A stretch of DNA of 20,351 nt from DASVDK01 sp036381125 [NCBI: Thermodesulfobacteriota bacterium] (lineage in GTDB: Bacteria > DASVDK01): positions 1-20,351 of the forward strand of contig DASVDK010000196.1 in NCBI GenBank assembly GCA_036381125.1. The letters run 5' to 3'. This document shows, piece by piece, positions 2,960 through 17,796 of this stretch. Both the position numbers and the translations under genes were made by a program. The notes below the pieces were generated by a model. That model was given only the letters and a program-made list of their open reading frames with translations. It did no database searches and was not told where the DNA came from. Position 1 is the stretch's first letter, and each line of letters begins with the position of its first letter.

Positions 2960-2994
2960 GGCCTGACCCGCGGGACGATCCTGGCCGGGTCAGG
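2960..2994. repeat. Inverted and partial copies of the 25-bp repeat head
   Basis: GGCCTGACCC at 2960-2969 is the exact reverse complement of GGGTCAGGCC at 2871-2880, and GGGTCAGG recurs at 2987-2994. The stop codon of the minus-strand GAF protein gene (TGA, 2992-2990) lies inside the last fragment, so the gene end may derive from the repeat. Opposed copies could fold into a long stem in RNA. Confidence 0.7.
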
Positions 2995-5455
2995 AGATGG
3001 CGCGTGGCCTCGAGGCGTGCTCGATGAGGGCGCGGGCGGCGTCCCCGTCGGCGACGAGGCCGGGGGGGAGGTCGTCGGGCGCCTGGGCGACGCCCATGGC
3101 GAGGCGGGCGCCCAGCTCCGCCATCGCCGTGCCGAGGCCGTCCTCGCGCGCGGCCTTCTCGAGCCGGTCGGCGACGGCGCGAGCGCCGTCCTCGGTATCG
3201 GGCAGAAGGACGGCAAGCCGGGTCTGGCTCACGCGCACGACCTCGTCGTAGACGCGCAACCGCGAGCGGAACGCCTCGCCGAGCTGCGCCAGGAGCGGGT
3301 CGATGCGCCGGGCGGCCCGCGAGGCGAGGATCCGCTCCGGCTCGAGCCGCGCGACGATCACGCCGACGTGGCGGCCGTTGCGCCGCGACCGCGCCAGCTC
3401 GTCGGCAAGCCGCCTCGACAGGTACGCCGCCCCGCCCGAGCCAGCCGGTGCCCCCGGCAACTCCCGCGCCGGCGAAGGCACCGGTGCACCTGCCCGGACG
3501 GAAAGGTTCGGCCTCGCCGGGGCCGCGCCCCGGCGCGAGGCGGCGGGCGGAACGGCCGCCCGGGAGGCGCCAGGATCGGCGGCCGGCGGGCGGTTCGCGG
3601 CCGCGGCGGCCGCGGGCGGCGCCGACCGGGGCGACGGCTCGGCCGGCGCCGGCGCCGGCGCTCGCGCTCCCGATCGCTCCTTGAGCGTCTGCTCGACGTA
3701 GGCGGCCAGCCGCCCGAGGATCTCCTCGTCGCCGGCGCCGAAAGGGAGCGGCCGGAAGGGATCGTCGGCCACCTTGTCGGCGACCGCGATCGTCCCGGCC
3801 ACGCGGCTGTCGACGAGCAGCGGGGTGGCCAGCCAGGTCCCCTCGCGCACGGCGCGCCGCTCCCGGCTCGCACGGCCGGCCGCCTGCTGCTCCGCGGCGA
3901 GCCGCTCGCGCCTGGCCGCCCGGTCCTCCGGGAGGCCGTAGGCGCCCTTCATGGTGAAGCGCGCCCCCTCCTCGCGGATCCGCACGACGGCCACGTCGGC
4001 CTCGAGAACCATGGCGGCCGACGCGGCGACGACGCGCCCCAGCTCCTCGAGGCTCGGCGCGGTGAGGATCGAGAGGCCGGCCTCGGTGATGGCGGCGAGC
4101 TTCGTCGCCTTGCCGGCCGCGGCGGCCTGCTCGCGCTCGCGCCGCAGGGCGTCGGCGAGCAGCGGCTTGAGTTCGCGCGAGAGGTCCACCGCCGCGCCGT
4201 CGCTCCCCGCGGTGGCGGTGATGACGAGGACGCCCTCGACACTCGACCGCGCGAGGAGCGGAGCGGCCAGCACGAGCCCGCCCCCCTCGGGATCGACCAG
4301 GCGCCGCTCCCGTCGCTCGCGCACGACGGCCCCTTCGAGGCCGTGGCCGAGCGACATCCGCGCCCCGCGCGCCCACGGCGCGCCGGCGCCGGCCTGGCTC
4401 GTGCCCTCGACGACGAGCAGCTCCGCCTCCGCGTCGTACCGGTAGACGGTGCAGGTGCCGCCCGGCAGGCGGGCCGCGACGGAGCGGCAGATGCCGTCGA
4501 GGCGCTCGGCGAGCGACCCCTCGGCGTCGAGCCGCTCGCGGAACTCGCGGTACGCGTCGAAGCGGGCCGCCACGCCCCTGAGCCGCTCGAACTCCTGCGA
4601 CCGGGAGATGATCTGGGCCTCGAGCGTCGCCAGCCGGGTGAGGAACGCGAGGTCCTCGTCGGTGAAGGCGTCGGGATCGGTCCGATGATGGACGTTGAGG
4701 ACGCCGATCACCCGGCCGTCGCCCGCGCGCAGCGGGACGCAGAGGGCGGCCGCCACGTCCTCCCGGATGTGGTGCGCGCCGGTGAGGGTCGGGTTGGCCG
4801 GCCCCGAGATCCGAAGCGGCGTCCCCTCCCTGGCGACCTTCCCCGAGATCCCCTCCCCCAGCGGGACGCGAATCGTGGGGATGACGTACGGGTCGATCCC
4901 CTCGGCGACGCGGACGCGGAGCACCTGCTCCTCGGGATCGAGCAGCAGCAGCGAGCCGCGATGCGCGCCGGTGGACTCGATCGCCACCGAGAGCACGAGC
5001 GACAGCAGCTCCTCCTGGTTCGACGCGAGGTTCACCGCGCCGATGATCTCGGAGAGGCCCGTGAAGAGCGCCGACTGCCGCTCGGCCGACTGGTCGCGGA
5101 CCGCGGCGGTCGGGTCCTTGGTCCCCCAGAGCAGCCGCGCGGAGAGCGCGCTCATGACCGTCGCGCGGGGCGGCTTCTTCTGCTGGATCGCGGCGCCCGT
5201 CTCGGCGTCGTGCGACGCGTCGATGACGAGGTCGAGGTCGGGCGTCTCGGCCAGCGCATCGAGGGTCGGCGCCACGGTCACCTGGTACCTGGAGGCGAGG
5301 CGATAGCCGAGCGCGTCGAGCTTGAAGACGAGCGCGTCCGGGTTGCGGTCGGCGATGAGCACGACCTTCACGTTCGGATCGCGGTCGAGCACCGGCAGGA
5401 GGGCGAGGCCCTCCTTGTTCGCACCGACGATGGCGACCCTGCGCATCCGCGGCAT
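2990..5455 (-). CDS. Rossmann + three GAF domains + degenerate GGDEF-like signalling protein
   Basis: An 821-residue, probably cytoplasmic protein without membrane segments. Residues ~5-110 look like an NAD(P)/nucleotide-binding Rossmann domain: VAIVGANKEGLALLPVL, acidic strand end VVLIADRNPD, and DLVIDASHD. Three GAF-type sensor domains follow at ~130-285 (clearest: GVLNVHHRTDPDAFTDEDL near 251), ~300-440 and ~450-590. An Ala/Pro-rich linker spans ~597-675 and carries a repeat shared with two neighbour genes. Residues ~677-815 align with a GGDEF fold (YLSRRLADELARSRRNGRHV; RVSQTRLAVLLPDTEDGARA), but the GGDEF signature at 743-747 reads SQTRL. Cyclic-di-GMP synthesis is therefore not expected. 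ATG 5455 lies 8 nt after the response regulator stop and has GAGG just upstream. Domain limits are judged by eye. Role unknown; last gene of a signalling operon. Confidence 0.85.
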   Translation of the reverse strand: MPRMRRVAIVGANKEGLALLPVLDRDPNVKVVLIADRNPDALVFKLDALGYRLASRYQVTVAPTLDALAETPDLDLVIDASHDAETGAAIQQKKPPRATVMSALSARLLWGTKDPTAAVRDQSAERQSALFTGLSEIIGAVNLASNQEELLSLVLSVAIESTGAHRGSLLLLDPEEQVLRVRVAEGIDPYVIPTIRVPLGEGISGKVAREGTPLRISGPANPTLTGAHHIREDVAAALCVPLRAGDGRVIGVLNVHHRTDPDAFTDEDLAFLTRLATLEAQIISRSQEFERLRGVAARFDAYREFRERLDAEGSLAERLDGICRSVAARLPGGTCTVYRYDAEAELLVVEGTSQAGAGAPWARGARMSLGHGLEGAVVRERRERRLVDPEGGGLVLAAPLLARSSVEGVLVITATAGSDGAAVDLSRELKPLLADALRREREQAAAAGKATKLAAITEAGLSILTAPSLEELGRVVAASAAMVLEADVAVVRIREEGARFTMKGAYGLPEDRAARRERLAAEQQAAGRASRERRAVREGTWLATPLLVDSRVAGTIAVADKVADDPFRPLPFGAGDEEILGRLAAYVEQTLKERSGARAPAPAPAEPSPRSAPPAAAAAANRPPAADPGASRAAVPPAASRRGAAPARPNLSVRAGAPVPSPARELPGAPAGSGGAAYLSRRLADELARSRRNGRHVGVIVARLEPERILASRAARRIDPLLAQLGEAFRSRLRVYDEVVRVSQTRLAVLLPDTEDGARAVADRLEKAAREDGLGTAMAELGARLAMGVAQAPDDLPPGLVADGDAARALIEHASRPRAIS
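3454..3507. repeat. Intragenic linker repeat, copy A (GAF protein gene)
   Basis: The stretch begins CCGGCAACTCCCGCGCCGG and continues CGAAGGC. It closely matches copy C at 8012-8065 (CCGGCAACTGCCGAGCCGG, then CGAAGGC) and has the same length. On the minus strand it encodes LSVRAGAPVPSPARELPG in the linker between the third GAF and the GGDEF-like domain. Confidence 0.6.
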
Positions 5456-5463
5456 GCTCGCCT

Positions 5464-6414
5464 CTACCCCTTCGGCTCGATCACGCCGAGCGCGAAGAGG
5501 TCGAGCAGCGTCGGCTGGATGGCCGACGGGGTCGACGGCGGGGCCGCCGGCGTGCGGGGGGACGTCCGTTCGGCCGAGGGAGCCGCAGCCGGGACCTTGC
5601 CGGCGCGGGGGGCGCCGGGCGCGCCGGCCGGCTCGCCGGCACGGGGGGCGCCGGGCGCACCGGCCGGCTCGGCGCGGTCGGCGGCCGGCGGCCGGCCGAG
5701 CTCGTCGGCGGCGCGCAGCGCGTCGAGGAGCAGCTCCTGCGTGGAGCCCGAGAGGGTGCGGGCCGGGGCCTCGCCGCCGAGGACGATCTCGAAGCGCCCC
5801 TCGCTCAGCGCGAGCAGCGACGGCAGCGCGGCGCGCCCCGCGACGCCGGCGTGGACCGCGTGCACCATGCTGCCCCGCTCGAGGAAGAGTCCGCCGACCT
5901 CCTCGCCGGCCGGTCCGATCACCCGCACCGCCGCCGTCTTGCGGCCGAGGTCGAGGATCTGCGCGATGTCGACGAGGCTCATGTCCCGCAGGTTGCCGGT
6001 AATGCCGGCGTCGGGCCCCTCGTCGGCCGCCGCGGCGACCGCCGCCCGCTTGAGGACCGCGCGCACCCGGGCGACCAGCTCCCTCGTGTCGAACGGCTTC
6101 GGGAGGAAGTCGTCCGCGCCGAGCTGCAGGCCGTAGATCCGGTCGGGCGCCGTGCTGCGCAGCGAGAGGAAGATGATCGGGATCCGCGCCGTCGCCCGTT
6201 CCGCTCTGAGCCGCCGGCAGAGCTGCCAGCCGTCGAGGCGGGGCATCAGGATGTCGGTGATCACGAGGTCGGGCGGCCGCGCCAGCACCCCCTCCCAGGC
6301 CGCCTGACCGTCGGCCGCCTGCTCCACGTCGAAGCCGGCGCGGCGCAGCACGGCGTCCAGCATCACCCGCATGTCGCGCTCGTCGTCGACCACGAGGATG
6401 CGGGGCCGGCTCAT
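5464..6414 (-). CDS. Response regulator: receiver + PATAN (DUF4388) domain
   Basis: A 316-residue protein with a CheY-like receiver (~4-122): acidic pair D10/D11, phosphorylation site D54 in VITDILMP, Ser84 in IFLSL, and Lys106 in LPKPF. All expected receiver residues are present, so it is probably phosphorylated by a histidine kinase encoded elsewhere. Residues ~136-237 match the PATAN/DUF4388 domain (GNLRDMSLVDIAQILDLGRK, then GLFLERGSMVHA), a probable protein-interaction module found beside receivers and MglA-type GTPases in deltaproteobacteria. The remainder is an Ala/Pro-rich linker with a duplicated AGEPAGAPGAPR unit, ending in a short conserved-looking tail (IQPTLLDLFALGVIEPKG). There is no DNA-binding domain. 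The ATG overlaps the stop of the GTPase-like gene (ATGA, 6414-6411), which suggests coupled translation. Confidence 0.92.
   Translation of the reverse strand: MSRPRILVVDDERDMRVMLDAVLRRAGFDVEQAADGQAAWEGVLARPPDLVITDILMPRLDGWQLCRRLRAERATARIPIIFLSLRSTAPDRIYGLQLGADDFLPKPFDTRELVARVRAVLKRAAVAAAADEGPDAGITGNLRDMSLVDIAQILDLGRKTAAVRVIGPAGEEVGGLFLERGSMVHAVHAGVAGRAALPSLLALSEGRFEIVLGGEAPARTLSGSTQELLLDALRAADELGRPPAADRAEPAGAPGAPRAGEPAGAPGAPRAGKVPAAAPSAERTSPRTPAAPPSTPSAIQPTLLDLFALGVIEPKG
5599..5670. repeat. 36-bp tandem duplication in response regulator linker
   Basis: Two adjacent 36-bp units (5599-5634 and 5635-5670) differ at only two positions. Each starts GCCGGC(G/A)CGGGGGG and ends CCGGCCGGCTC. The length is a multiple of three, so the frame is kept and the protein gains a second AGEPAGAPGAPR unit. 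Confidence 0.85.
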
Positions 6415-7292
6415 CGCGTCGCCCCACCGGCCTGCACGGGGTCGATCCTGAGCGTCAGGGTGAGGCGGTGCTCGCCCCCCCGCGGGTCGCGGACGACGAG
6501 CGGCACCTCCAGACCGCCGGGGACGCCCCGCGGCGTCCCGACCGCAACCGAACTCTGCGGTGCGTCCTGGGAAAGCCGTGCCGGCGAAGACGATGGTGCG
6601 CCCGCCTCGGCCGAGAGGGTTACGCGTGCCGGCGACGCCGGTGCGGCGCCCGGCTGGGCGGAAGAGGTGACGGTGGCCCGGGCCGCCGGCGTCTCCGGCC
6701 CGCCCTCCCCCTTCGCCACCACCAGCTTGGCCACGGCCGAGAGCGCGTTCAGGATCCCGCGGCCGTCGGTCGCCACCCCCTCGAACACCGGGGGGCGCTT
6801 GCCGTCGAGCCGATCGAGGAGCGTCTTGAGGATCTGCTCCGACGGCAGCGCGTTGGGCAGGTCGCGCTTGTTGAGGAGGATGACGACCGGAAGGGCCGAG
6901 AGGGCGCGTCCGTAGGCCGCCATGTGCTCGCTCAGCTCGCGCATGGCCGCCGCGGTGTCGCGGGCCCGCTCGGGCGCGGAGTCGGCCACGAAGATCACGC
7001 CGTCGACGCCCTTGAGGAGCTGCCGCCGCGAGCCGACGTTGGCCGCACCGCGGGGAACGGTGGCGAGTTGCACGCGGCGGTGCAGCCCGTTCACCTCGCC
7101 GAGGTCCACCGGGAGCACCTCGTAGGCGGCCTGGACGTCGGTGGGGAGGGTCTGGCGGACGATCTGACCGCGCTGGTCGGCTCGCATGCGGCGCCAGATC
7201 GTCTCGAGCGTGGTCGTCGTGCCGGCGCCCGCCGGCCCGAAGACCACGATCCGCGAGGTGACCACGCGCCGCTCGGCGCTCGCATCGGGCAC
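6411..7292 (-). CDS. MglA-like small GTPase homologue with altered P-loop (probable pseudo-GTPase)
   Basis: A 293-residue protein. Residues ~12-195 follow MglA, the polarity GTPase of gliding and type IV pilus motility: P-loop region VVFGPAGAGTTTTLE, switch region VQLATVPRGA, then LLKGVDGVIFVADS, and the guanine-specificity motif LLNKRDLPNAL (NKRD 141-144). The P-loop lysine is missing: G19-P-A-G-A-G24 is followed by Thr25-Thr26, and the codon is ACG where AAG would give Lys. MglA's TDRTLFF and TVPGQ motifs, which hold its catalytic Arg53 and Gln82, read TDVQAAY and TVPRG here. Nucleotide binding may be weak and hydrolysis is doubtful. Residues ~196-255 are a low-complexity linker with two copies of a repeat, followed by a small beta-rich tail (VPLVVRDPRGGEHRLTLTL). 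GTG 7292 is the chosen start. No Roadblock/MglB gene is adjacent. Confidence 0.9.
   Translation of the reverse strand: MPDASAERRVVTSRIVVFGPAGAGTTTTLETIWRRMRADQRGQIVRQTLPTDVQAAYEVLPVDLGEVNGLHRRVQLATVPRGAANVGSRRQLLKGVDGVIFVADSAPERARDTAAAMRELSEHMAAYGRALSALPVVILLNKRDLPNALPSEQILKTLLDRLDGKRPPVFEGVATDGRGILNALSAVAKLVVAKGEGGPETPAARATVTSSAQPGAAPASPARVTLSAEAGAPSSSPARLSQDAPQSSVAVGTPRGVPGGLEVPLVVRDPRGGEHRLTLTLRIDPVQAGGATR
6580..6619. repeat. Intragenic linker repeat, copy B1 (GTPase-like gene)
   Basis: Begins GCCGGCGAAGACGATGGTGC and continues GCCCGCCTCGGCCGAGAGGG, matching the core of copies A and C. On the minus strand it encodes LSAEAGAPSSSPAR in the linker after the G domain. ACTCTGCGGTGCG just to its left (6552-6564) recurs at 7959-7971 near copy C. 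Confidence 0.55.
6628..6667. repeat. Intragenic linker repeat, copy B2 (GTPase-like gene)
   Basis: A second, more diverged unit (GCCGGCGACGCCGGTGC, then GGCGCCCGGCTGGGCGGAAG) lies 8 bp from copy B1. It encodes SSAQPGAAPASPAR, so the linker holds two consecutive versions of the same peptide. Confidence 0.5.
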
Positions 7293-7304
7293 GGTCCGGC
7301 CGGC

Positions 7305-8537
7305 CTAGTGGCCGCCTCCGAACGCCGCCTGCTCTCTCTGCTTCTGGCGCTCGGCTTTGGCCTGCATCATGCGGCGGGCGGCGGTGGCGATGGCGCCCGA
7401 GACGTTCTTGCTCTTGGCGATCGCGGCGACGTCCTTCTCCTGGAGGGTGTTGAGGCAGCGCATCGCGATGTCGTTCGGCACGCGCGGGTTGCCGGCGAGC
7501 GCGAGGCGGACCGCGTAGAGCTTCATGAAGTCCTTGTTCTGGGCGATGAGGCGGAAGACCTCGGTCGAGAGGTTGCGCGAGTTCGCGAAGGCGATGATCT
7601 CGGTCTCGGTCACCTTCGGGCTCTTGACCACCGAGCCGCAGACCAGCTTGTTGGGGTCCTTGACGAGGAGCCCGCGCGCCTCCTTGTTGCCCTTGAAGGC
7701 GAGCTGGATCTTCTGCGACACGTTCATCTGGAGGATCTGCTTGTAGAGGCTCTCGTGCTGCGGCGAGCCCTCGTCGAGCGGCTGGTCGGACTCCTCCGTC
7801 AGGGCGCGGTCGAACTGGACGCCCGTGTCCTCGCCGGCGGCAAGCCGCGCCACCAGCGCCTGGGCGTCCGCCTCGGAGAGGTCCCCCCCCTGCGACGGGT
7901 CCTGGGTCGGCCGTGCCGAATCGGCCGGCGCGCCGGCCTGCGAAGGCGCCGGCGACGGACTCTGCGGTGCGGCCGCCTCCGACCGCGCCGGCGACGAACG
8001 ATGCGGTTCGGCCGGCAACTGCCGAGCCGGCGAAGGCTCTGTGGCGCCCGCCTGGGCCGAAGGGGTCGCCCCCGCCGCCTCCGCCCGCGCCATGGCGCTC
8101 GCGATGCGGGCCCGGTGCGGGCGCGGGATCGCACGGTCCTGCACGGCGGCCAGGAGCGCCGCCGGCCGCGCGACGGCGAGCCGGGCGAGCGCGGTGTCGG
8201 GCACCTGCGGATGGCGCAGCAGCCGGTCGGCCACCGCCGGGTCGGTGCCGCGGACGCGGGCGAGGATGTCGAGGATGCGCGGGTCGGTGTCCGGGGCGAC
8301 CCCCTCGAGGAGCGGCGCCACGGGGCCGCGGGCGAGGCGGTCGCGCGCCGCCTCGCGGACCGCCGGGTCGCGGTCGGCGGCCAGCACGGCCAGCGCGGCG
8401 AGCCGGTCGGCCGCGCCGAGCGGCGCCTCGCCCCTGGCGGCCGCCAGCCGCGACGCCCTGGGCGCGTCGGGTCGGACCACGGCGAGCGCGGCGGGCGAGA
8501 GGAGCGTCTTGGGGGACTCGCCCGGCGTACCGTTCAC
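7305..8537 (-). CDS. HEAT-like repeat protein with conserved C-terminal domain of unknown function
   Basis: A 410-residue protein. GTG 8537 is chosen because it overlaps the upstream TPR gene's stop (GTGA) and has GGAGG 9 nt before it. Residues ~12-150 are short helical HEAT-like units (LAVLAADRDPAVREAARDRL; ILARVRGTDPAVADRLLRHP). Residues ~150-260 are a Pro/Ala/Ser linker carrying a repeat shared with two downstream genes. Residues ~261-395 form a different, Lys-richer and less GC-biased domain (LYKQILQMNVSQKIQLAFKG; ARGLLVKDPNKLV; LALAGNPRVPNDIAMRCLNT). It resembles a conserved but uncharacterised helical protein of deltaproteobacteria. The tail is Lys/Gln-rich (MMQAKAERQKQREQ). No enzyme motifs are visible. 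It is probably a scaffold for the downstream GTPase-like and receiver proteins; that role is inferred from the operon. Confidence 0.85.
   Translation of the reverse strand: MNGTPGESPKTLLSPAALAVVRPDAPRASRLAAARGEAPLGAADRLAALAVLAADRDPAVREAARDRLARGPVAPLLEGVAPDTDPRILDILARVRGTDPAVADRLLRHPQVPDTALARLAVARPAALLAAVQDRAIPRPHRARIASAMARAEAAGATPSAQAGATEPSPARQLPAEPHRSSPARSEAAAPQSPSPAPSQAGAPADSARPTQDPSQGGDLSEADAQALVARLAAGEDTGVQFDRALTEESDQPLDEGSPQHESLYKQILQMNVSQKIQLAFKGNKEARGLLVKDPNKLVCGSVVKSPKVTETEIIAFANSRNLSTEVFRLIAQNKDFMKLYAVRLALAGNPRVPNDIAMRCLNTLQEKDVAAIAKSKNVSGAIATAARRMMQAKAERQKQREQAAFGGGH
8012..8065. repeat. Intragenic linker repeat, copy C (HEAT-like gene)
   Basis: Starts CCGGCAACTGCCGAGCCGG, continues CGAAGGCTCTGTGGCGCCCG and ends CCTGGGCCGAAGGGG. 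It encodes PSAQAGATEPSPARQLPA in the linker of the HEAT-like protein. It is the best match to copy A at 3454-3507. Confidence 0.6.
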
Positions 8538-8989
8538 GACCAGAGACCTCCGAGCCTCGCGCGGAGACGGCCCAGGTGGCGGTTGAGGAAATGGCTGCGC
8601 GGCAGCCAGCGCAGGACCGGCTGGCGGCGGATGCCGAGCGCCTCGAGCTCGCGCAGGATGGCGGGGTGTCGCGGATCGACCGTGCGGCCCTGCCGGAACG
8701 CCTGGACCGCCTCGCGCTTGCGGCCGGCCGACAGCAGCACCCTGCCGAGGTTCAGGTAGTGGTCCGCGCGGTAGAACTCGAGGTCGACCGCGCGACGGCA
8801 GTCGGCGATCCCCTCGTCGGTCCGTCCCTCGTACAGGGCGAGACAGAGCCCCCGGTGCGACAGCGCCGCCGCATCTCCCGGCTCGAGCCTCAGCGCCTCC
8901 TCGAAGCAGGCGAGGGCCTCGCGGTGGCGGCCGGCCTGAAGCAGCCGCTGACCCCGCTCGAACAGCGCGTTGTGATCGACTACGTTCAC
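8534..8989 (-). CDS. TPR-repeat protein
   Basis: A 151-residue soluble protein and the first gene of the five-gene signalling operon. About three tetratricopeptide repeats fill residues ~4-105: ALFERGQRLLQAGRHREALA with EEALRLEPGDA; GLCLALYEGRTDEGIADCRR; YLNLGRVLLSAGRKREAVQA. A basic tail follows (VLRWLPRSHFLNRHLGRLRA). TPRs bind other proteins, so an adaptor role is likely. In Myxococcus the TPR protein SgmX is an MglA effector, but this protein is much smaller and no orthology is claimed. The GTG start at 8989 has only a weak G-rich sequence before it. Its stop overlaps the next gene's start by four bases. Confidence 0.88.
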   Translation of the reverse strand: MNVVDHNALFERGQRLLQAGRHREALACFEEALRLEPGDAAALSHRGLCLALYEGRTDEGIADCRRAVDLEFYRADHYLNLGRVLLSAGRKREAVQAFRQGRTVDPRHPAILRELEALGIRRQPVLRWLPRSHFLNRHLGRLRARLGGLWS

Positions 8990-9065: not shown

Positions 9066-9094
9066 GGTATATCAGAGGCCCCCCGGGGTGTCAA
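9066..9094 (-). promoter_or_regulatory. Sigma70-type promoter for the TPR-to-GAF operon
   Basis: On the minus strand TTGACA (9094-9089) is followed by a 17-bp spacer and TATACC (9071-9066), with TGA just before it giving an extended -10 (TGn). The -35 box overlaps the coaX stop codon. Transcription should start near 9059, leaving a leader of roughly 70 nt before the TPR gene. The spacer contains a CCCCGGGG palindrome. The same design recurs at 15049-15077. Confidence 0.72.
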
Positions 9095-9867
9095 GCCGCG
9101 CGGTGCCCCTGGCGGGCATGGATGAGCCGAAGGCCGTCGAGGGTGAGGAACTCGTCGATTTCCTTGATGGTTCTGGTTTCCGGGGCGATGAGCCCGGCGA
9201 GGCCGCCGGTGGCCACGACGGCCGGGTCCGACCCCGCCTCGCGAGCCATCCGCGTCACGATCTCGTCCACGAGGCCGACGTAGCCGAACACCAGGCCGGC
9301 CTGCATCGCGACGTTCGTCGTGCGGCCGATGACCGACGGCGGCCGGGTGATCTCGATCCGGGGCAGCCGCGACGTCCGTTGCACGAGCGCCTCGGCCGAG
9401 ATCCCGATCCCGGGCGCGATCGCGCCGCCGAGGTACTCGCCGGCGGCCGTGACGTAGTCGAAGGTCGTCGCCGTGCCGAAGTCGACGACGATGGCGGCGC
9501 GCTTGAAGCGCGTGTGCGCGGCGACGGCGTTGACGATGCGGTCGGCGCCGACGTCGGCCGGGTTCTCGTAGCGGATCGTGATGCCGGTGTCGGTGTCCGG
9601 ACCGACGACGAGCGGCACCGTGCCGAACCGGACGCGGCAGAGGTCGACGAACGTCGGGGTGAGCGGCGGCACGACGGAGGCGAGCACCGCCGCGCTGACC
9701 GCGGCGGGCGCGACCCCCTCCAGCGCGAAGCACTGGAGCACCGTGATCGCGTACTCGTCCGGCGTGCGGTCCTTGTGCGTGGCGAGCCGCCACTGATGGC
9801 GCAGCCGATCGCGGTCGTACAGGCCGATGGCGATGTTCGTGTTGCCGACGTCGATGGCCAGGAGCAT
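9091..9867 (-). CDS. coaX: Type III pantothenate kinase
   Basis: A 258-residue enzyme that phosphorylates pantothenate with ATP, the first committed step of coenzyme A synthesis. N-terminal LLAIDVGNTNIAIGLYD is the ASKHA phosphate-binding motif (Asp6). GADRIVNAVAA (~107-117) and VVDFGTATTFDYV (~128-138) carry the conserved acidic residues, and GGAIAPGIGIS (~147-157) is also typical. Length fits the family. ATG 9867 is 6 nt after the birA stop, with an ideal AGGAGG Shine-Dalgarno formed by birA's last two codons, so the two genes are probably translated together. birA-coaX neighbours are common in bacteria. The TGA is part of the -35 box of the next operon's promoter. Confidence 0.95.
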   Translation of the reverse strand: MLLAIDVGNTNIAIGLYDRDRLRHQWRLATHKDRTPDEYAITVLQCFALEGVAPAAVSAAVLASVVPPLTPTFVDLCRVRFGTVPLVVGPDTDTGITIRYENPADVGADRIVNAVAAHTRFKRAAIVVDFGTATTFDYVTAAGEYLGGAIAPGIGISAEALVQRTSRLPRIEITRPPSVIGRTTNVAMQAGLVFGYVGLVDEIVTRMAREAGSDPAVVATGGLAGLIAPETRTIKEIDEFLTLDGLRLIHARQGHRAA

Positions 9868-9873
9868 CGTCGC

Positions 9874-10674
9874 CTACCTCCTGAGGACCGTCACCTCGCC
9901 CGACACGACGGCTCGCCGGCCGGACGGCGTCTCGAGGAGCAGCGCACCGTCGTCGCCGAGCCCGATCGCCACCCCCTCCACCACCTCTGCGTTCGCCCCC
10001 GGCCCGCCGACGGCCACCGCCAGGCGCGTGCCGGGGAGCCCCGAGAGCCTGAGCCATGCCTCGCGGACCGGCTCGAAGCCGTCGCGCCGGGCACGGTCGA
10101 GCCAGGCGTCGAGCGCCTCGAGGAGGCGCCGCGCGACGACCGCCCGGTCCACCTCGCGGCCGAGCACTGCCGCGAAGGAGGTCGCGTGCGGCGCGAGATC
10201 GGCCGGCAGGCTCGACGGGTCGAGGTTCACGTTGACGCCGACGCCGAGGACGAGGTGCTCGATCCGCCCCGCCGGCCCGGTCTCGAGATCGGCCAGCACG
10301 CCCGCCGCCTTGCGGCCCCCGAGGAGGAGGTCGTTCGGCCACTTGAGGGTCGGCAGGAGCCCGGACGCGAGCGCCGCGCTGGCCACGGCCACGCCGCCGA
10401 GGAGCGTGAGCCGGGGCGCGGCGGGCGCCGGCAGGTCGGGACGCAGGAGGACCGACAGGTAGACGTTGACGCCGGCCGGCGAGACCCACGTGCGGCCGAG
10501 CCGGCCGCGCCCCGCCGTCTGCGCATCGGCGAGGACGGCGAACCCCTCGGGCGCGCCGGCGCGCGCCGCCTCGCGCACCAGGTCGCTCGTCGAGCCGACG
10601 GCGCCGTGCACCTCCAGCGGCCGGCCGACGACCCGCGTGGCGAGGCCGCGCTCGACGGCGTCGCGCGTGAGCAC
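9874..10674 (-). CDS. birA: Biotin-[acetyl-CoA-carboxylase] ligase, lacking the DNA-binding domain
   Basis: A 266-residue ligase that makes biotinyl-AMP and attaches biotin to the carrier domain of acetyl-CoA carboxylase and similar enzymes. Diagnostic motifs are AGRGRLGRTW (~54-63, the biotinyl-AMP loop) and LKWPNDLLLGGRKAAGVLAD (~110-129), then LGVGVNVN (~143-150) and a C-terminal SH3-like domain ending VSGEVTVLRR. The protein starts almost directly at the catalytic core, so it lacks the winged-helix domain of E. coli BirA (321 residues) and should not act as a biotin repressor. GTG 10674 is chosen: it is 8 nt after the valS stop, with AGGA about 6 nt before it. The frame stays open far upstream inside valS, but that part is only shadow. 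Confidence 0.93.
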   Translation of the reverse strand: MLTRDAVERGLATRVVGRPLEVHGAVGSTSDLVREAARAGAPEGFAVLADAQTAGRGRLGRTWVSPAGVNVYLSVLLRPDLPAPAAPRLTLLGGVAVASAALASGLLPTLKWPNDLLLGGRKAAGVLADLETGPAGRIEHLVLGVGVNVNLDPSSLPADLAPHATSFAAVLGREVDRAVVARRLLEALDAWLDRARRDGFEPVREAWLRLSGLPGTRLAVAVGGPGANAEVVEGVAIGLGDDGALLLETPSGRRAVVSGEVTVLRR

Positions 10675-10682
10675 GGACCGTC

Positions 10683-13412
10683 CTACGTTCCCGCGATCAC
10701 GGCGCGCACGCGCGCCAGGTTCTCGGCGAGCGCCCGCGCGTCGGTCTCGTAGGCGGCGAGCTTGGCCCGCTCCTTCTCGACGACCTCCTCGGGCGCCCGC
10801 GCGACGAAGTCCGCCTTCGCGAGCTTGGCGCGCGTGCCGGCGGCGAGCGACTCGACGCGCGCGAGTTCCTTCTCGAGGCGCGTCGCCTCCTCGCGGATGG
10901 CCGCCTCCCCCACCTCCACGAGCACCTCGACGCCCCGCACCACCTCGGCCGCCGCCCAGCGCGGCGCCGCCGCGCCCGGCCCGGTGATGGTCACGTCGGC
11001 GTTGGCGAGCGGCTCGACGTAGGTGCGCGCGAGCGACTCGAGGAGCGCCCGCCGCTGCGTCCCGTCGCCGCCCGCGGTCCCGAAGCGGACGAACGGGGCG
11101 ATCCGCCTGGCCGGCGGCAGGTTGTAGGTGCCGCGGATCCGCCGCGCCGCCACGATCACCGCCTGGACGAAGTCCATCTCGTCCTCGGCCGCGGCGTCGA
11201 TGCGAGCCGGGTCGGCCTTCGGGAAGGGGGCCGTCACGAGCATCTCGGCGTCTCCCGGCCGGCGGGGCAACGCGTGCCAGATCTCCTCGGTGACGAACGG
11301 CGCGATCGGGTGCAGGAGCGCCAGCGCCTCGCGGAGCACCTCGACCAGGACCGCCTGGCGCCGGGCGCGCCCGGCCGGCTCGGCCCCGGGCGACAGGTCG
11401 ACCTTGGACAGCTCGATGTACCAGTCGCAGTACTCGTGCCAGAGGAAGTCGTAGATGGCCGCCGCCGCGTCGTTGAAGCGGTAGGCGTCGAGATGCGCCC
11501 GCACCGACTCGACGGTACGCGCCGCGCGCGAGAGGATCCAGCGGTCGGCCAGGTCGAGCGTCTCCCGGGGCAGGTCGGCCACGCGGCCGACCGCGACGCC
11601 CGGGTCGACGTTCATCAACACGAACCTGGCCGCGTTCCAGATCTTGTTGACGAAGTTCCGGTAGCCGGCGATCCGCTCCTCCGCGAGCTTCACGTCGCGT
11701 CCCTGGGCCGCGAGCGCGGTGAGGGTGAACCGGAAGGCGTCGGCGCCGTACTTGTCGACCATCACGAGCGGGTCGATGACGTTGCCCTTGGACTTCGACA
11801 TCTTCTGCCCCTCGGCGTCGCGCACGAGGGCGTGGATGTAGACGTCGCGGAAGGGCTCGCGGCCCATGAAGCGGAGCCCCATCATGATCATCCGGGCCAC
11901 CCAGAAGAAGAGGATGTCGAACCCGGTGACGAGCAGCGAGGTCGGGTAGAACTTCGCGAGGTCGGGCGTCTGGTCGGGCCACCCCAGCGTCGAGAACGGC
12001 CAGAGCGCCGACGAGAACCAGGTGTCGAGGACGTCGGTCTCCTGGCGGAGCGTGGTGTGGCCGCTGCGGCAGGTCGTCGGCGCGTCGACCGCCACGATGA
12101 CGTCGTCGCACGTGTCGCAGAACCAGGCCGGGATCCGGTGCCCCCACCAGATCTGCCGCGAGATGGTCCAGTCCCGGATGTTCTCCATCCAGTTGAAGTA
12201 CGTGCTCTCCCACTGCTCGGGGATGATCCGGATCCGCCCCTCGCGCACGGCCGCGATGGCGGGCTCGGCGAGCGGCTTGATCCTGACGAACCACTGCGTC
12301 GAGACCATCGGCTCGATGACCGTGCGGCAGCGATAGCAGCGGCCGACGGCGTGCAGGTGCGGCTCGGTCTTCACCAGGAGCCCCGCCGCCTCGAGGTCGG
12401 CCACGATCCGCTTCCTCGCCTCGTACCGGTCGAGCCCCTGGTAGCGGCCGGCCGCCTCGGTCATCCTCGCGTGGGTGTCGAGCGCCACCACCTGCGGCAG
12501 GCCGTGCCGGCGGCCGATCTCGAAGTCGTTCGGGTCGTGGGCGGGCGTCACCTTGAGCGCGCCCGAGCCGAACGCGCGGTCGACGTAGGGGTCGGCGATC
12601 ACCGGGATGCGCCGGCCCGCCAGCGGCAGCTCCACCTCGCGCCCCACGAGGTGGCGGTAGCGCTCGTCCTCGGGGTGCACCGCCACGGCCGTGTCGCCGA
12701 ACATCGTCTCCGGACGCGTCGTGGCGACGACCGGCCCCTCGCCCGGGGCGCCCCCCACGAGCGGGTAGCGGATGTGGTAGAGGGCCCCCTGCGTCTCCTC
12801 GTACTCGACCTCGAGGTCGGAGATCGCCGTCTCGTCCCTGGGGCACCAGTTGACGATGTAGCCGCCGCGGTAGATGAGCCCGTCGTGGTAGAGCCGGACG
12901 AAGACCTCGCGCACGGCGCGCGAGAGCCCTTCGTCCATCGTGAAGCGCTCGCGCGTCCAGTCGCAGGAGGCGCCGAGCCGGCGAAGCTGCTTGATGATCG
13001 TCCCGCCCGACTCCGCCTTCCAGGCCCAGACGCGCTCGACGAAGGCCTCGCGGCCGAGGTCGTGGCGGGAGAGCCCCTGGGCCGCGAGCTGCCGCTCGAC
13101 GACGTTCTGCGTGGCGATGCCGGCGTGGTCCGTGCCCGGGACCCACAACGCCTCGAAACCGTCCATCCGCTTGTAGCGGATGACGATGTCCTGGAGGGTG
13201 TTGTTGAAGGCGTGCCCCATGTGGAGCGAGCCGGTGACGTTGGGCGGCGGGATGACGATGCTGAAGGGCGGCTTCGGCGACCGCGCGTCGGCGGTGAAGG
13301 CCCCGCGGTCGATCCAGGCCTGGTACCAGCGCGCCTCGATGCGCGCCGGCTCGAGCGCCTTCGGGAGCGCCGTGACGGGGCGTTCCTGCACTGATCCGGT
13401 CTTCTCGGGCAT
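10683..13412 (-). CDS. valS: Valyl-tRNA synthetase
   Basis: A 909-residue class Ia aminoacyl-tRNA synthetase that charges tRNA-Val and edits mischarged threonine. It has the HIGH-type motif HMGH (64-67) after PPPNVTGSL, the editing-domain motif [12 protein letters not shown] (~229-240), WWGHRIPAW (~422-430), and KMSKS (537-541). The anticodon-binding helical domain follows, then a C-terminal coiled coil (~830-909, [20 protein letters not shown]). Length is normal. First gene of valS-birA-coaX. ATG 13412 has no clear ribosome site. An alternative GTG at 13391 also precedes the conserved N-terminus. A TAAAAT box lies 8 nt upstream of the ATG. Confidence 0.97.
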
Positions 13413-13590: not shown

Positions 13591-14952
13591 CTACTTGCCG
13601 GTCAGCTTCCGGATCTCGGCGGTGATGAGCTGCTCGCAGAGGTCGGGGACGACCTCCCAGGCGACCGACTCGATCACCTCCCGCGCGACCCGCGTGACGA
13701 TGGCCTCGATCTGGGCCGGCGGCAGCGTGACGCCGGCGGCCTCCAGGTCGCCCGCCAGCCCCTCGGCAGCCGCCCTGACGCGGCTCGCGAGCGCCCCCAT
13801 GGGGACCGGGGCGGCTCCCACCCGCGTCACCGACTCGACCTGCCAGTCGTCGGCGCCGTCGGCCGGGACGAGCGCGCCGTCCTCGTCGGCCTCCGGCGGG
13901 GCGGCGAGCGGGTCCTCCTCGACGGCCTCGAGCGCCTCGGCCTCGAGGGCCTCGTCGGCGACCTCCTCGAAGTCGGTCAGCTCCATCGAGTCGTCGGCGA
14001 CCTCGGCGAGGTCGGCCCCGTCGCCGATCTCGGCGACCTCGGCGAACTCCGGATCCGCGGCAAAGGCGTCCTCGTCGGGCGCCGCCTCGGCGACCTCCAT
14101 GAGCTCCGCCGCCAGCTCGCCGTTGCCGCCGAAGCCGTCGTCGGTCGAGCCGAAGCCCTCGTCGGTCGAGCCGAAGCCCTCGTCCTCCGCCACCGGCTCG
14201 AGGAGGTCCGGCGCGGCGAGCGGGTCGTCATCCCCGAACGCGTCCGCCTCGGCGGCCGGCTCGGTCGCCTCGCTCTCCGCGAAGTCGAAGGTCTGCTCCC
14301 CCTCGATGCCGGCAACGCCCGCGTCGAGGGCCGGCTCGGTCCCGGGCTCGAAGTCGGACAGGTCCCACACGTCCTCCTCGGCCCCGGATCCGTTCTGGGC
14401 GTCCCAGTCCGCGTCCCCCTCCTGGACGGCGGCCTCGGGGGCGACCTCCTCGAAGGGGCTGAAGTCGTCCAGGTTGAACGAGGAATCGGCTTCGGCCAGG
14501 TCCGGCTCGACGGCTGCCGCCGTCCGCGCCGGGGGAGGGCCCGACGCACCCGGCTGCGCCGGCGGTCGGCCGCCGGGAGTCTGCGCGCGCGATGTCAATT
14601 CGTGCACCTTGTCGATGAGGGTCTGCGACTCGAACGGCTTGGTGATGTAGCCGTCGGCGCCGACCCGGGCCATCTCGGCTTCGTCGAACGACTCGAACGT
14701 ACCGGCCAGGAGCAGCACCGGGGTGTTGCGCAGCTCCGGGTCGTGCTTCACGTACTCGCAGACTTCGTAGCCGTTCTTCCCCGGCATCACGACGTCCGCC
14801 AGGATGAGATCGGGCCTGATCCGCCTGGCCGTCTGGATCGCGTCCACGCCGTTGTCGACGGTCGTGAGCGTGAAGTCCTCGTTCGCGAACGTGATGCCGA
14901 TGACCTTCTGGATGGTGATGCTGTCATCGGCCAGCAAGAGCTTCTTCGGCAT
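13591..14952 (-). CDS. Receiver-domain protein with long acidic linker and conserved C-terminal helix (RomR-like architecture)
   Basis: A 453-residue protein. The N-terminal receiver (~3-120) has D9/D10, phosphorylation site D53 in LILADVVMP, and Lys105 in ITKPFESQ. Residues ~125-385 are a very acidic Asp/Glu/Ala-rich, presumably disordered linker (for example [18 protein letters not shown]) with a small tandem repeat of EGFGSTD. Residues ~395-453 are a conserved-looking helical end ([20 protein letters not shown]). There is no DNA-binding or enzymatic output domain, so output is probably by protein contact. The layout resembles polar regulators such as Myxococcus RomR (receiver, linker, Glu-rich end), but orthology is not shown. 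It has its own promoter (15049-15077) and a ~90-nt leader. ATG 14952 lacks a strong ribosome site, but it is the natural receiver start ([10 protein letters not shown]). Confidence 0.88.
14140..14181. repeat. 21-bp tandem repeat in acidic-linker receiver gene
   Basis: Two exact 21-bp units (GTCGGTCGAGCCGAAGCCCT plus C) at 14140-14160 and 14161-14181 encode EGFGSTD twice, with a partial third unit to the left. The unit length keeps the frame. Confidence 0.85.
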
Positions 14953-16804: not shown

Positions 16805-17350
16805 CCGTCGCGGTCCTCGTGGCGGCGACCGGCGCGGCTCCGGTCCGACCCGAGCAGGGTCGTGCACGGAGGCGATGAGCCGCTCGCTCCCGGGACCGGG
16901 GCCCGCCCCCACCCCTCCCGGGCGCCGCCCCGTCGGCCCGGCGTCCAGCCCGGAGCGGGATATCGCCTGCCGTTATCGATTCACGATATCACGATCTTGC
17001 CGCGGGAGGAGCTGCCGCGCCGCGCCCCCGGCCGACGAGGACTCTGGGCCGCGTCGTGGCCCGCGGCAGTCGGCGTGCCGGAGCCGGTCGCGCGCCGGGG
17101 ATCCCGTGGCGTCCTGGCGGCGCGCTCGCACGCATTCCGCAGACCGTCCGCGTGCCGCCGGGCCCGGAGATGCCGACTCGTGCGGCCACGACGCGCCGAG
17201 ACGCTCGAAGGAGAACGCAACGGCCGCCGAGGTGCCGACCGGCCTGGTCACGGCTTACGACCACGACGAGGCCGCGCGTCGGCGCTGGCGGGGGAGCGCG
17301 GTCACGGGGCCGCGGCGCGCCCCCGTCGGCCGCTTCACGGGAGTCGCACC
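16805..17350. other. Gene-free interval between padR and the multicopper oxidase remnant
   Basis: Several overlapping open frames exist here, but none has a recognisable domain or a convincing start. Their composition is the Arg/Pro/Ala-rich pattern of GC-rich noncoding frames. The one distinct element is an AT-rich patch at 16959-16995. The stretch probably holds the padR promoter and the decayed upstream region of the oxidase remnant. Confidence 0.5.
16959..16995. promoter_or_regulatory. AT-rich dyad, candidate PadR operator
   Basis: GATATCG (16959-16965) is mirrored by CGATATC (16984-16990). Inside it, TATCG (16974-16978) and CGATA (16984-16988) form a tight dyad with spacer ATTCA. TCACGAT occurs twice (16981-16987 and 16989-16995). 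The half-sites sit 155-190 bp upstream of padR in otherwise GC-saturated DNA. Dyads with short AT-containing half-sites are usual for PadR dimers, but this assignment is inferred. Confidence 0.45.
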
Positions 17351-17796
17351 ATGAGCACGATGACCACCGTCTGGAAGCCGACGCGGCGGCAGGTCCTGTG
17401 GGCCGGCGCGATTGCCGGCGGCGCCCTGATGGGGCCCCGCCATGCCGCTGCCGGGACCGGGGCGGACGACGCCGCCGGCGTCGCGGCGCCGCCGGGGCCG
17501 GCCGACGTCACGCTCCGGACGAGACCATCCCGATGGTCTTCGGCAAGATCACCCGGGGCCGGGACGGCTTCAACGTCTGGACGATCAACGGCCAGTCGTA
17601 CGAGGCGCACGGCGCGCCGCAGCGCCTGACGCGCGGCCGCCGCTACCGGCTGGCCTTCGACAACCGCTCCGACGACAGGCACCCCCTGCACCTGCACCGG
17701 AGCGTGTTCGAGCTGACCAGCGTCGACGGAAAGCGGACCGCGGGGGTCATGAAGGACGTGGACTACGGGTTCATGAAGGTGTTCGACGTCGTCTGA
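17351..17796 (+). pseudogene. Remnant of a Tat-exported multicopper oxidase
   Basis: ATG 17351 opens a frame with a twin-arginine-type signal, PTRRQVLWAGAIAGGALM, then ADVTLR, as at the start of mature multicopper oxidases. After about 17510 the homology jumps to another frame: DETIPMVFGKITRGRDGF, NVWTINGQSYEAHG, YRLAFDNRSDDRHPLHLHRS, then FELTSVDGKRTAGVMKDV. This is the C-terminal cupredoxin domain, ending DYGFMKVFDVV at TGA 17794-17796. Between KDV and DYGF, the segment that normally carries the HCHxQ-type copper ligands is missing. Most of the domain(s) between the signal and the C-terminal domain is also missing. The only HxH left is HLH. One out-of-frame and one in-frame deletion therefore explain the locus. 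An 87-residue product from ATG 17533 is possible but would lack key copper ligands and a signal peptide. Confidence 0.72.

Follow-up and report, generated by a model that had tools for sequence, protein, structure and literature searches.

A decaying MglA-like protein in a candidate sensor-adaptor-scaffold gene cluster of a Thermodesulfobacteriota bacterium

What can a Ras-like protein do once the residues that turn over GTP have gone? The question is raised by five genes on contig DASVDK010000196.1 of a Thermodesulfobacteriota bacterium (DASVDK01 sp036381125), a stretch of 20,351 nucleotides (nt) that we call the window. The genes encode a TPR protein, a HEAT-like solenoid protein, an MglA-like protein, a receiver protein with a PATAN domain, and a protein that joins Rossmann-like, GAF and GGDEF-like parts (Rossmann-GAF below). 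A preliminary description, made from the sequence alone, had read them as a packed signalling cluster in which two former enzymes had lost catalytic residues, and had suggested a polarity or surface-behaviour complex where phosphorylation of the receiver replaces GTP turnover. We find that the cluster probably signals without the usual kind of GTP cycle. Our own reading, held tentatively as a serious possibility, is that it may form a cytoplasmic sensor-adaptor-scaffold module, assembled from two older units and built on a decaying Ras-like switch.

The MglA-like protein matches the Arf family (E 4.1e-8), and its closest solved relatives are MglA structures (E 1.9e-41, 3t12); it resembles the Group 1 MglA proteins of Myxococcus xanthus and Thermus thermophilus across the whole G domain, including NKRD in G4. 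Yet its P-loop reads GPAGAGTT, with threonine in place of the lysine of GxxxxGK[ST], the intrinsic arginine finger in G2 is gone (TDVQ stands there), and G3 reads TVPRG instead of TVPGQ, without the catalytic glutamine. The loss of catalytic residues that had been proposed for the GTPase is therefore real. In the available text of PMC4316618, Group 1 is defined by TVPGQ together with the arginine finger, and the window protein has neither. It also differs from Group 1 in occupying its own tree branch, in carrying a linker followed by a conserved C-terminal beta tail, and in having no MglB nearby; PF03259, the domain of coupled MglB/Roadblock proteins, is not found in the four genes on either side of it.

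A question arises, is this erosion confined to one contig? Relatives were reached through a scan with ValS, which gave 80 loci among at least 589 candidates, a sample that need not include the nearest relatives; genomes and loci carry our own G and L numbers. The first set holds 48 HEAT loci, eight from a search of 33 genomes and the other 40 from the higher-ranked genomes in the phylum of genome G011, about 61 weaker ones being left out. The second holds 34 Rossmann-GAF loci in the phylum of genome G030 (L093 and 33 others), several of them cut by contig ends. When motifs were read by alignment with M. xanthus MglA, GK[ST], the arginine, TVPGQ and NKRD were all kept in 11 of the 15 HEAT-linked MglA-like proteins of the first set, which in TVPGQ and the arginine finger agree with Group 1; some motifs are lost in L138, L146, L160 and L169. 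The G030 phylum supplies 31 cluster proteins, the one from L093 included. Of these, 30 lack the arginine finger (the exception is L222) and 30 lack the G3 glutamine (the exception is L208), while the P-loop lysine is retained in 24 and NKxD in 25. The lysine is absent from L190, L199, L201, L205, L209, L211 and L215, from L259 and L260, which are separate MglA-like copies of G387 and G446, and from the window protein.

A tree of 64 proteins (LG+G4, rooted on nine canonical MglA proteins and M. xanthus MglA) places the HEAT-linked and cluster MglA-like proteins in a single clade apart from canonical MglA (ultrafast bootstrap, UFBoot, 95), with the eroded proteins nested inside it (UFBoot 100). 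The window protein branches beside L212, L214, L215 and L218 (UFBoot 88). The lysine-less L201, L209, L199 and L211 cluster together (UFBoot 98), L190, L205 and L215 each join lysine-keeping proteins (UFBoot 99, 100 and 100), and L259 pairs with L260, without printed support, within a group (UFBoot 100) that otherwise keeps the lysine; elsewhere within the cluster set, many internal branches are poorly supported. If the lysine was never regained, parsimony requires six or more separate losses, that of the window protein among them.

Might the protein nevertheless remain a nucleotide-bound switch, one whose changed P-loop still holds GTP and which an exchange of partners, rather than hydrolysis, would reset? 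Given that NKxD persists in the window protein and in 25 of the 31 cluster proteins, and the P-loop lysine in 24, those relatives may plausibly bind GTP without hydrolysing it. As the window protein itself has lost the lysine, the arginine finger and the G3 glutamine, and the clade appears to have shed the lysine time and again, we regard this alternative as unlikely, if deserving of some weight. Most likely, the window protein has ceased to be a switch that hydrolyses GTP and is now a binding partner with a Ras fold, because its lineage lost the hydrolysis residues and, repeatedly, the nucleotide-binding lysine. It would then resemble the eukaryotic pseudoGTPases (the p190RhoGAP domains, septins) and the Ras-like domain of the dynein light intermediate chain, which in the accessible portions of that literature are GTPase folds that have lost motifs and serve binding; unlike these, it is of bacterial MglA origin and has intact relatives at the same locus. 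Most tails of the lineage finish with a short beta-rich segment, approximately IPL-x-DxxG-xLxLxLDP, after a linker of widely differing length, and the printed frames deviate or run on at the tail in L130, L132, L133, L134 and L196. The 954-residue frame of L132 combines an MglA with intact motifs with a very long acidic, repetitive linker. When genome contigs were scanned for the MglA-like protein, 216 pattern matches came up, no relative among them.

With which proteins would such a partner work? The five genes are no chance row, because their pairs recur adjacent in relatives; they are the union of two pairs, each kept together in distant bacteria. In the first pair, the MglA-like gene lies directly after HEAT in 16 of the 48 HEAT loci, and in 14 of these the two genes overlap or stand no more than 27 nt apart; the remaining two, L134 and L141, have wider gaps and involve genes counted with an internal stop. 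In the G030 phylum, 34 of 235 genomes have Rossmann-GAF, and in 31 of these 34 the MglA-like gene is directly upstream of it, at an estimated spacing of -13 to +9 nt in 26 of the 31; the three exceptions are G397, where the contig ends, and G387 and G446, which carry a HEAT-MglA pair elsewhere in the genome. The second pair comes from three other phylum samples, where Rossmann-GAF occurs in 4 of 149, 4 of 118 and 2 of 79 genomes: at all 11 loci of these ten genomes a PATAN gene is directly upstream (spacing -16 to +33 nt). Searching 28 further handles with Rossmann-GAF returned only G011 again, and the order-level search around G013 comprised one genome, G013 itself. The window joins the HEAT-MglA and PATAN-Rossmann-GAF pairs in one run. 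The proposal that the genes form a set thus holds for the adjacent pairs and falls short for the five together, the two units lying apart in three other genomes; judged by the refuting condition that the preliminary description had set, the five are partly scattered.

The neighbours could also be explained mainly by an inherited housekeeping locus (BirA-CoaX-EF-G-SPOR-HEAT, with ValS in some), with no single complex behind them. On the HEAT strand of the 48 loci we find an EF-G paralog in 29, CoaX in 21, BirA in 18 and ValS in 9; at 33 loci of the G030 phylum, HEAT is found in 29, CoaX in 28, BirA in 25, a 453-residue response regulator in 22, the EF-G paralog in 18 and ValS in none. HEAT is, moreover, far more widespread than Rossmann-GAF, its C-terminal half matching in 7 of the 33 genomes reached through ValS (E <= 0.001) and, at E <= 1e-8, in 101 of 297 genomes of the G011 phylum and 202 of 235 of the G030 phylum; no match was found in the viral contigs and plasmids scanned. 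Even so, the signalling pairs stay adjacent, many of them overlapping, while the presence of EF-G, TPR and PATAN between them varies, and PATAN-Rossmann-GAF pairs are kept with no CoaX, BirA or HEAT match nearby. We consider the housekeeping locus a rather improbable explanation of the whole. The TPR gene is among the inconstant members, with a match on the HEAT strand in 8 of the 48 loci, directly after CoaX in six, and none in the 33 Rossmann-GAF loci of the G030 phylum.

Could phosphorylation of the receiver have taken the place of GTP turnover in a polarity or surface-behaviour complex, as first suggested? The window receiver (family match E 1.3e-29) has all of DD, the acceptor aspartate, S and K, and its PATAN domain (DUF4388, PF14332) is secure (E 1.6e-15, 57.6 bits against a cut-off of 25). 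PATAN and MglA genes are, in addition, known neighbours: in the available text of Wuichet and Sogaard-Andersen 2014 some Group 1 and Group 5 MglA genes lie near PATAN genes (PMC4316618), which also cites Makarova 2006 for MglB near PATAN, and PilB-type ATPases are present in the genomes searched. Against this, the acceptor position is asparagine in L232-L235 and glutamate in L243 and L245, changed in all six receiver-PATAN relatives, and five more PATAN relatives (L231, L236, L229, L246, L244) have no receiver at all. No PATAN was found at the 34 Rossmann-GAF loci of the G030 phylum, some of which are cut by contig ends, and no histidine kinase was found near the cluster. Given the changed acceptors and the missing receivers, the replacement of GTP turnover by phosphorylation is unsupported, and we judge such a complex very unlikely.

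Other parts of the preliminary description fared better. In agreement with it, the window proteins scanned, a set that excludes ValS, yielded neither a Roadblock domain nor a histidine kinase nor an active output domain. The Rossmann-GAF protein has a clear GAF match (E 2.4e-26), and its GGDEF (0.00041) and oxidoreductase-type Rossmann (0.014) matches are both below their cut-offs; the GG(D/E)EF motif of diguanylate cyclases is replaced by SQTRL, and none of the 41 rows that reach this stretch carries it (47 rows, six too short), which bears out the loss of this motif. The label HEAT is valid only as a general solenoid fold, because the protein has no Pfam match above cut-off and Foldseek with its model returned no PDB match at E <= 0.001, the upper rows being mostly HEAT/ARM-type proteins. 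The AlphaFold2 model, made from two sequences, shows two alpha-solenoid halves and a low-confidence linker at about residues 159-218 (mean predicted local distance difference test score, pLDDT, 78). VIA-align of this model reached Z values up to 6.6, within noise for helical repeats, with HEAT, ARM, alphaRep and LRV chains in its rows; at that noise level we assigned the protein to no single repeat family.

Binding surfaces are what the cluster has kept: the solenoid, the Ras fold with its tail, PATAN and the GAF/Rossmann part. With GG(D/E)EF absent, the receiver acceptor unconserved and the GTPase eroded, we propose that signalling would proceed by direct contact. Unit A would pair the HEAT-like solenoid with an MglA paralog of its own, whose lineage includes working-looking GTPases, and unit B the Rossmann-GAF sensor with the PATAN adaptor. 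Ligand binding by the Rossmann/GAF part would gate the PATAN protein through direct contact, phosphorylation being optional, and the MglA-like/HEAT pair would hold, place or deliver the complex, the conserved C-terminal beta tail possibly serving as a dock. The order of the genes and how far it is conserved, the loss of motifs and the lineage are direct observations; the contacts, the ligand and the output are inferred. The output may be a type IV pilus-type ATPase; this is our best guess and the weakest step of the proposal, made because other PATAN proteins bind PilB. According to the accessible text of PMC10519157 and PMC7690835, cyanobacterial PATAN proteins bind PilB and one of them is held by a sensor (PixD-PixE). 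As in PixD-PixE and the other cyanobacterial pairs of sensor and PATAN-receiver acting on PilB, so far as these sources describe them, a sensor is here paired with PATAN, as gene pairs at 11 of 11 loci; the sensor differs in being Rossmann-GAF rather than BLUF, and the receiver in being degenerate or absent in the cluster relatives.

How does this compare with the polarity system in which MglA normally works? With MglA-MglB-RomR/SgmX the cluster shares an MglA-type, a receiver and a TPR protein, RomR and SgmX being compared by description only, from partial sources. It differs in having no Roadblock partner, and canonical MglA-MglB pairs are located elsewhere, away from the cluster, in 30 of 34 genomes: these 30 have a Roadblock match (against 3 of 14 controls), in each case with one within about 1 kilobase of a strong MglA match. 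Motifs are intact in all four canonical MglA proteins read among the 30 (G532, G392, G343, G537). Many genomes hold a further MglA paralog; the four that were read (L255-L258, from G332, G030, G343 and G537) have intact motifs and 48-50% identity to the HEAT-linked MglA query, and the tree places them as the sister group of the HEAT-linked lineage. A PilB-type ATPase matches in 44 of 44 genomes, 39 of them above cut-off, as against 8 of 14 controls, none above cut-off.

Several observations weigh against the module that we favour. The full five-gene order is seen in the window only, the HEAT gene lies apart from the PATAN-Rossmann-GAF pair in G076, G011 and G013, and most G030-phylum genomes with HEAT have no Rossmann-GAF (202 versus 34 of 235). 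NKRD is kept in the window protein, as if the guanine contact still mattered, and the single-sequence structure model of the MglA-like protein (pLDDT 38.6) is too poor to use. Finally, the cluster is retained in G030, a 3.7-Mb (megabase) genome with one contig of 3.67 Mb, where Roadblock has no match and the best PilB match stays below cut-off (572.5 of 675.65 bits); this counts against a pilus- or MglB-linked output there. In that genome at least, the cluster seems to be independent of MglB. Action of the MglA-like protein on a nearby MglB was considered and rejected, given that none lies nearby and that G030 has no Roadblock match.

More tentatively still than the sensor-adaptor-scaffold module, the Ras-like lineage may have been caught in mid-turn from GTPase switch to pseudo-GTPase: tied through gene order to one solenoid partner, it would have lost the hydrolysis residues early and the lysine many times, with Rossmann-GAF and PATAN taking over the switching. 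MglA is the model bacterial Ras-like switch, and its side lineage, whose members at a single conserved locus include intact, hydrolysis-poor and lysine-less proteins, would offer a natural series for what becomes of a Ras-like fold after GTP turnover, with its likely partners named (solenoid, PATAN, Rossmann-GAF). In the literature searched, a scope outside which most subscription journals lie, we found no description of the MglA-like lineage, its solenoid partner or the decay series, and the terms 'HEAT' and 'EF-G' are not found in the main text of PMC4316618. The candidate pilus regulators named in the available text of a 2024 M. xanthus paper include a TPR protein and two proteins with PATAN (PMC11580455).

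The genes themselves are real and packed as had been claimed. All five open reading frames run on the minus strand from 8989 to 2990, open, intact and closely spaced, with overlaps of GTGA (8537-8534) and ATGA (6414-6411) at two junctions and spacings of 12 and 8 nt at the other two; their guanine-cytosine (GC) content at third codon positions, 0.89-0.97, fits coding use of all five. CoaX flanks the cluster on one side and an RlmI-type methyltransferase gene on the other. Coordinates are collected in the table.

Table 1. Positions of the cluster genes, their upstream neighbours and other features in the window (aa, amino acids).
Feature	Position	Strand	Remarks
TPR protein	8534..8989	-	151 aa, GTG start; TPR_2 E 1.2e-15
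HEAT-like alpha-solenoid protein	7305..8537	-	410 aa; two solenoid halves, C-terminal half conserved
MglA-like Ras-fold protein	6411..7292	-	293 aa; variable linker, conserved C-terminal beta tail
Receiver + DUF4388 (PATAN) protein	5464..6414	-	316 aa
Rossmann-like N-terminus, GAF domains, GGDEF-like C-terminus	2990..5455	-	821 aa
CoaX, type III pantothenate kinase	9091..9867	-	upstream neighbour, conserved in relatives
BirA-type biotin ligase	9874..10680	-	start not fixed; conserved upstream neighbour
ValS	10683..13412	-	upstream neighbour, shared with some relatives
Response regulator	13591..14952	-	453 aa; conserved upstream neighbour in G030 phylum
Promoter-like TTGACA-17-TATA	9068..9094	-	overlaps CoaX stop codon
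36-nt in-frame minisatellite	5599..5710	-	receiver-PATAN protein linker
39-nt in-frame minisatellite	7948..8033	-	HEAT-like protein linker

The promoter that had been ascribed to the cluster is only suggested, because the TTGACA-17-TATA pattern was chosen after its site had been seen; the pattern occurs once in the window and in none of 100 shuffles, and a stricter consensus scan found no promoter. Among the upstream neighbours, the response regulator has matches to its receiver and to about 40 residues at its C-terminal end, in the same position at 21-22 of 33 G030-phylum loci, its middle being variable. The EF-G paralog lies near or directly upstream of HEAT in many relatives, among them L095, L093 and members of L137-L169 (29 of 48 loci) and L190-L222 (18 of 33 loci). 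Its L014 copy matches NCBIfam NF009381, and it is often followed by a SPOR-domain protein, matched above cut-off between EF-G paralog and HEAT in four of four loci tested; in the window no EF-G paralog is present between TPR and HEAT.

The linkers of the cluster proteins have apparently been a place where short repeats spread. Besides the two minisatellites, a family of 90-nt repeats (62-72% identity to the reference) lies at 3437-3526, 6549-6638 and 7995-8084, in the linkers of three of them. The stretch that separates the end of the Rossmann-GAF gene from the methyltransferase gene holds three tandem 25-nt units (GGGGTCAGGYCTTTCCATTTTCCAG-like) at 2870-2944; the copies are 88-96% identical to the first, and about half of the array is GC, against more than 70% around it. 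Elsewhere on the plus strand, in the region of 17056-17796 and 17345-17629, one frame holds a multicopper-oxidase-like stretch (PF07731) and a different frame, just upstream, a twin-arginine translocation (Tat)-like signal, RRQVLWAGAIAGGALM; the two are possibly one gene with a frame break, or the product of a sequencing error.

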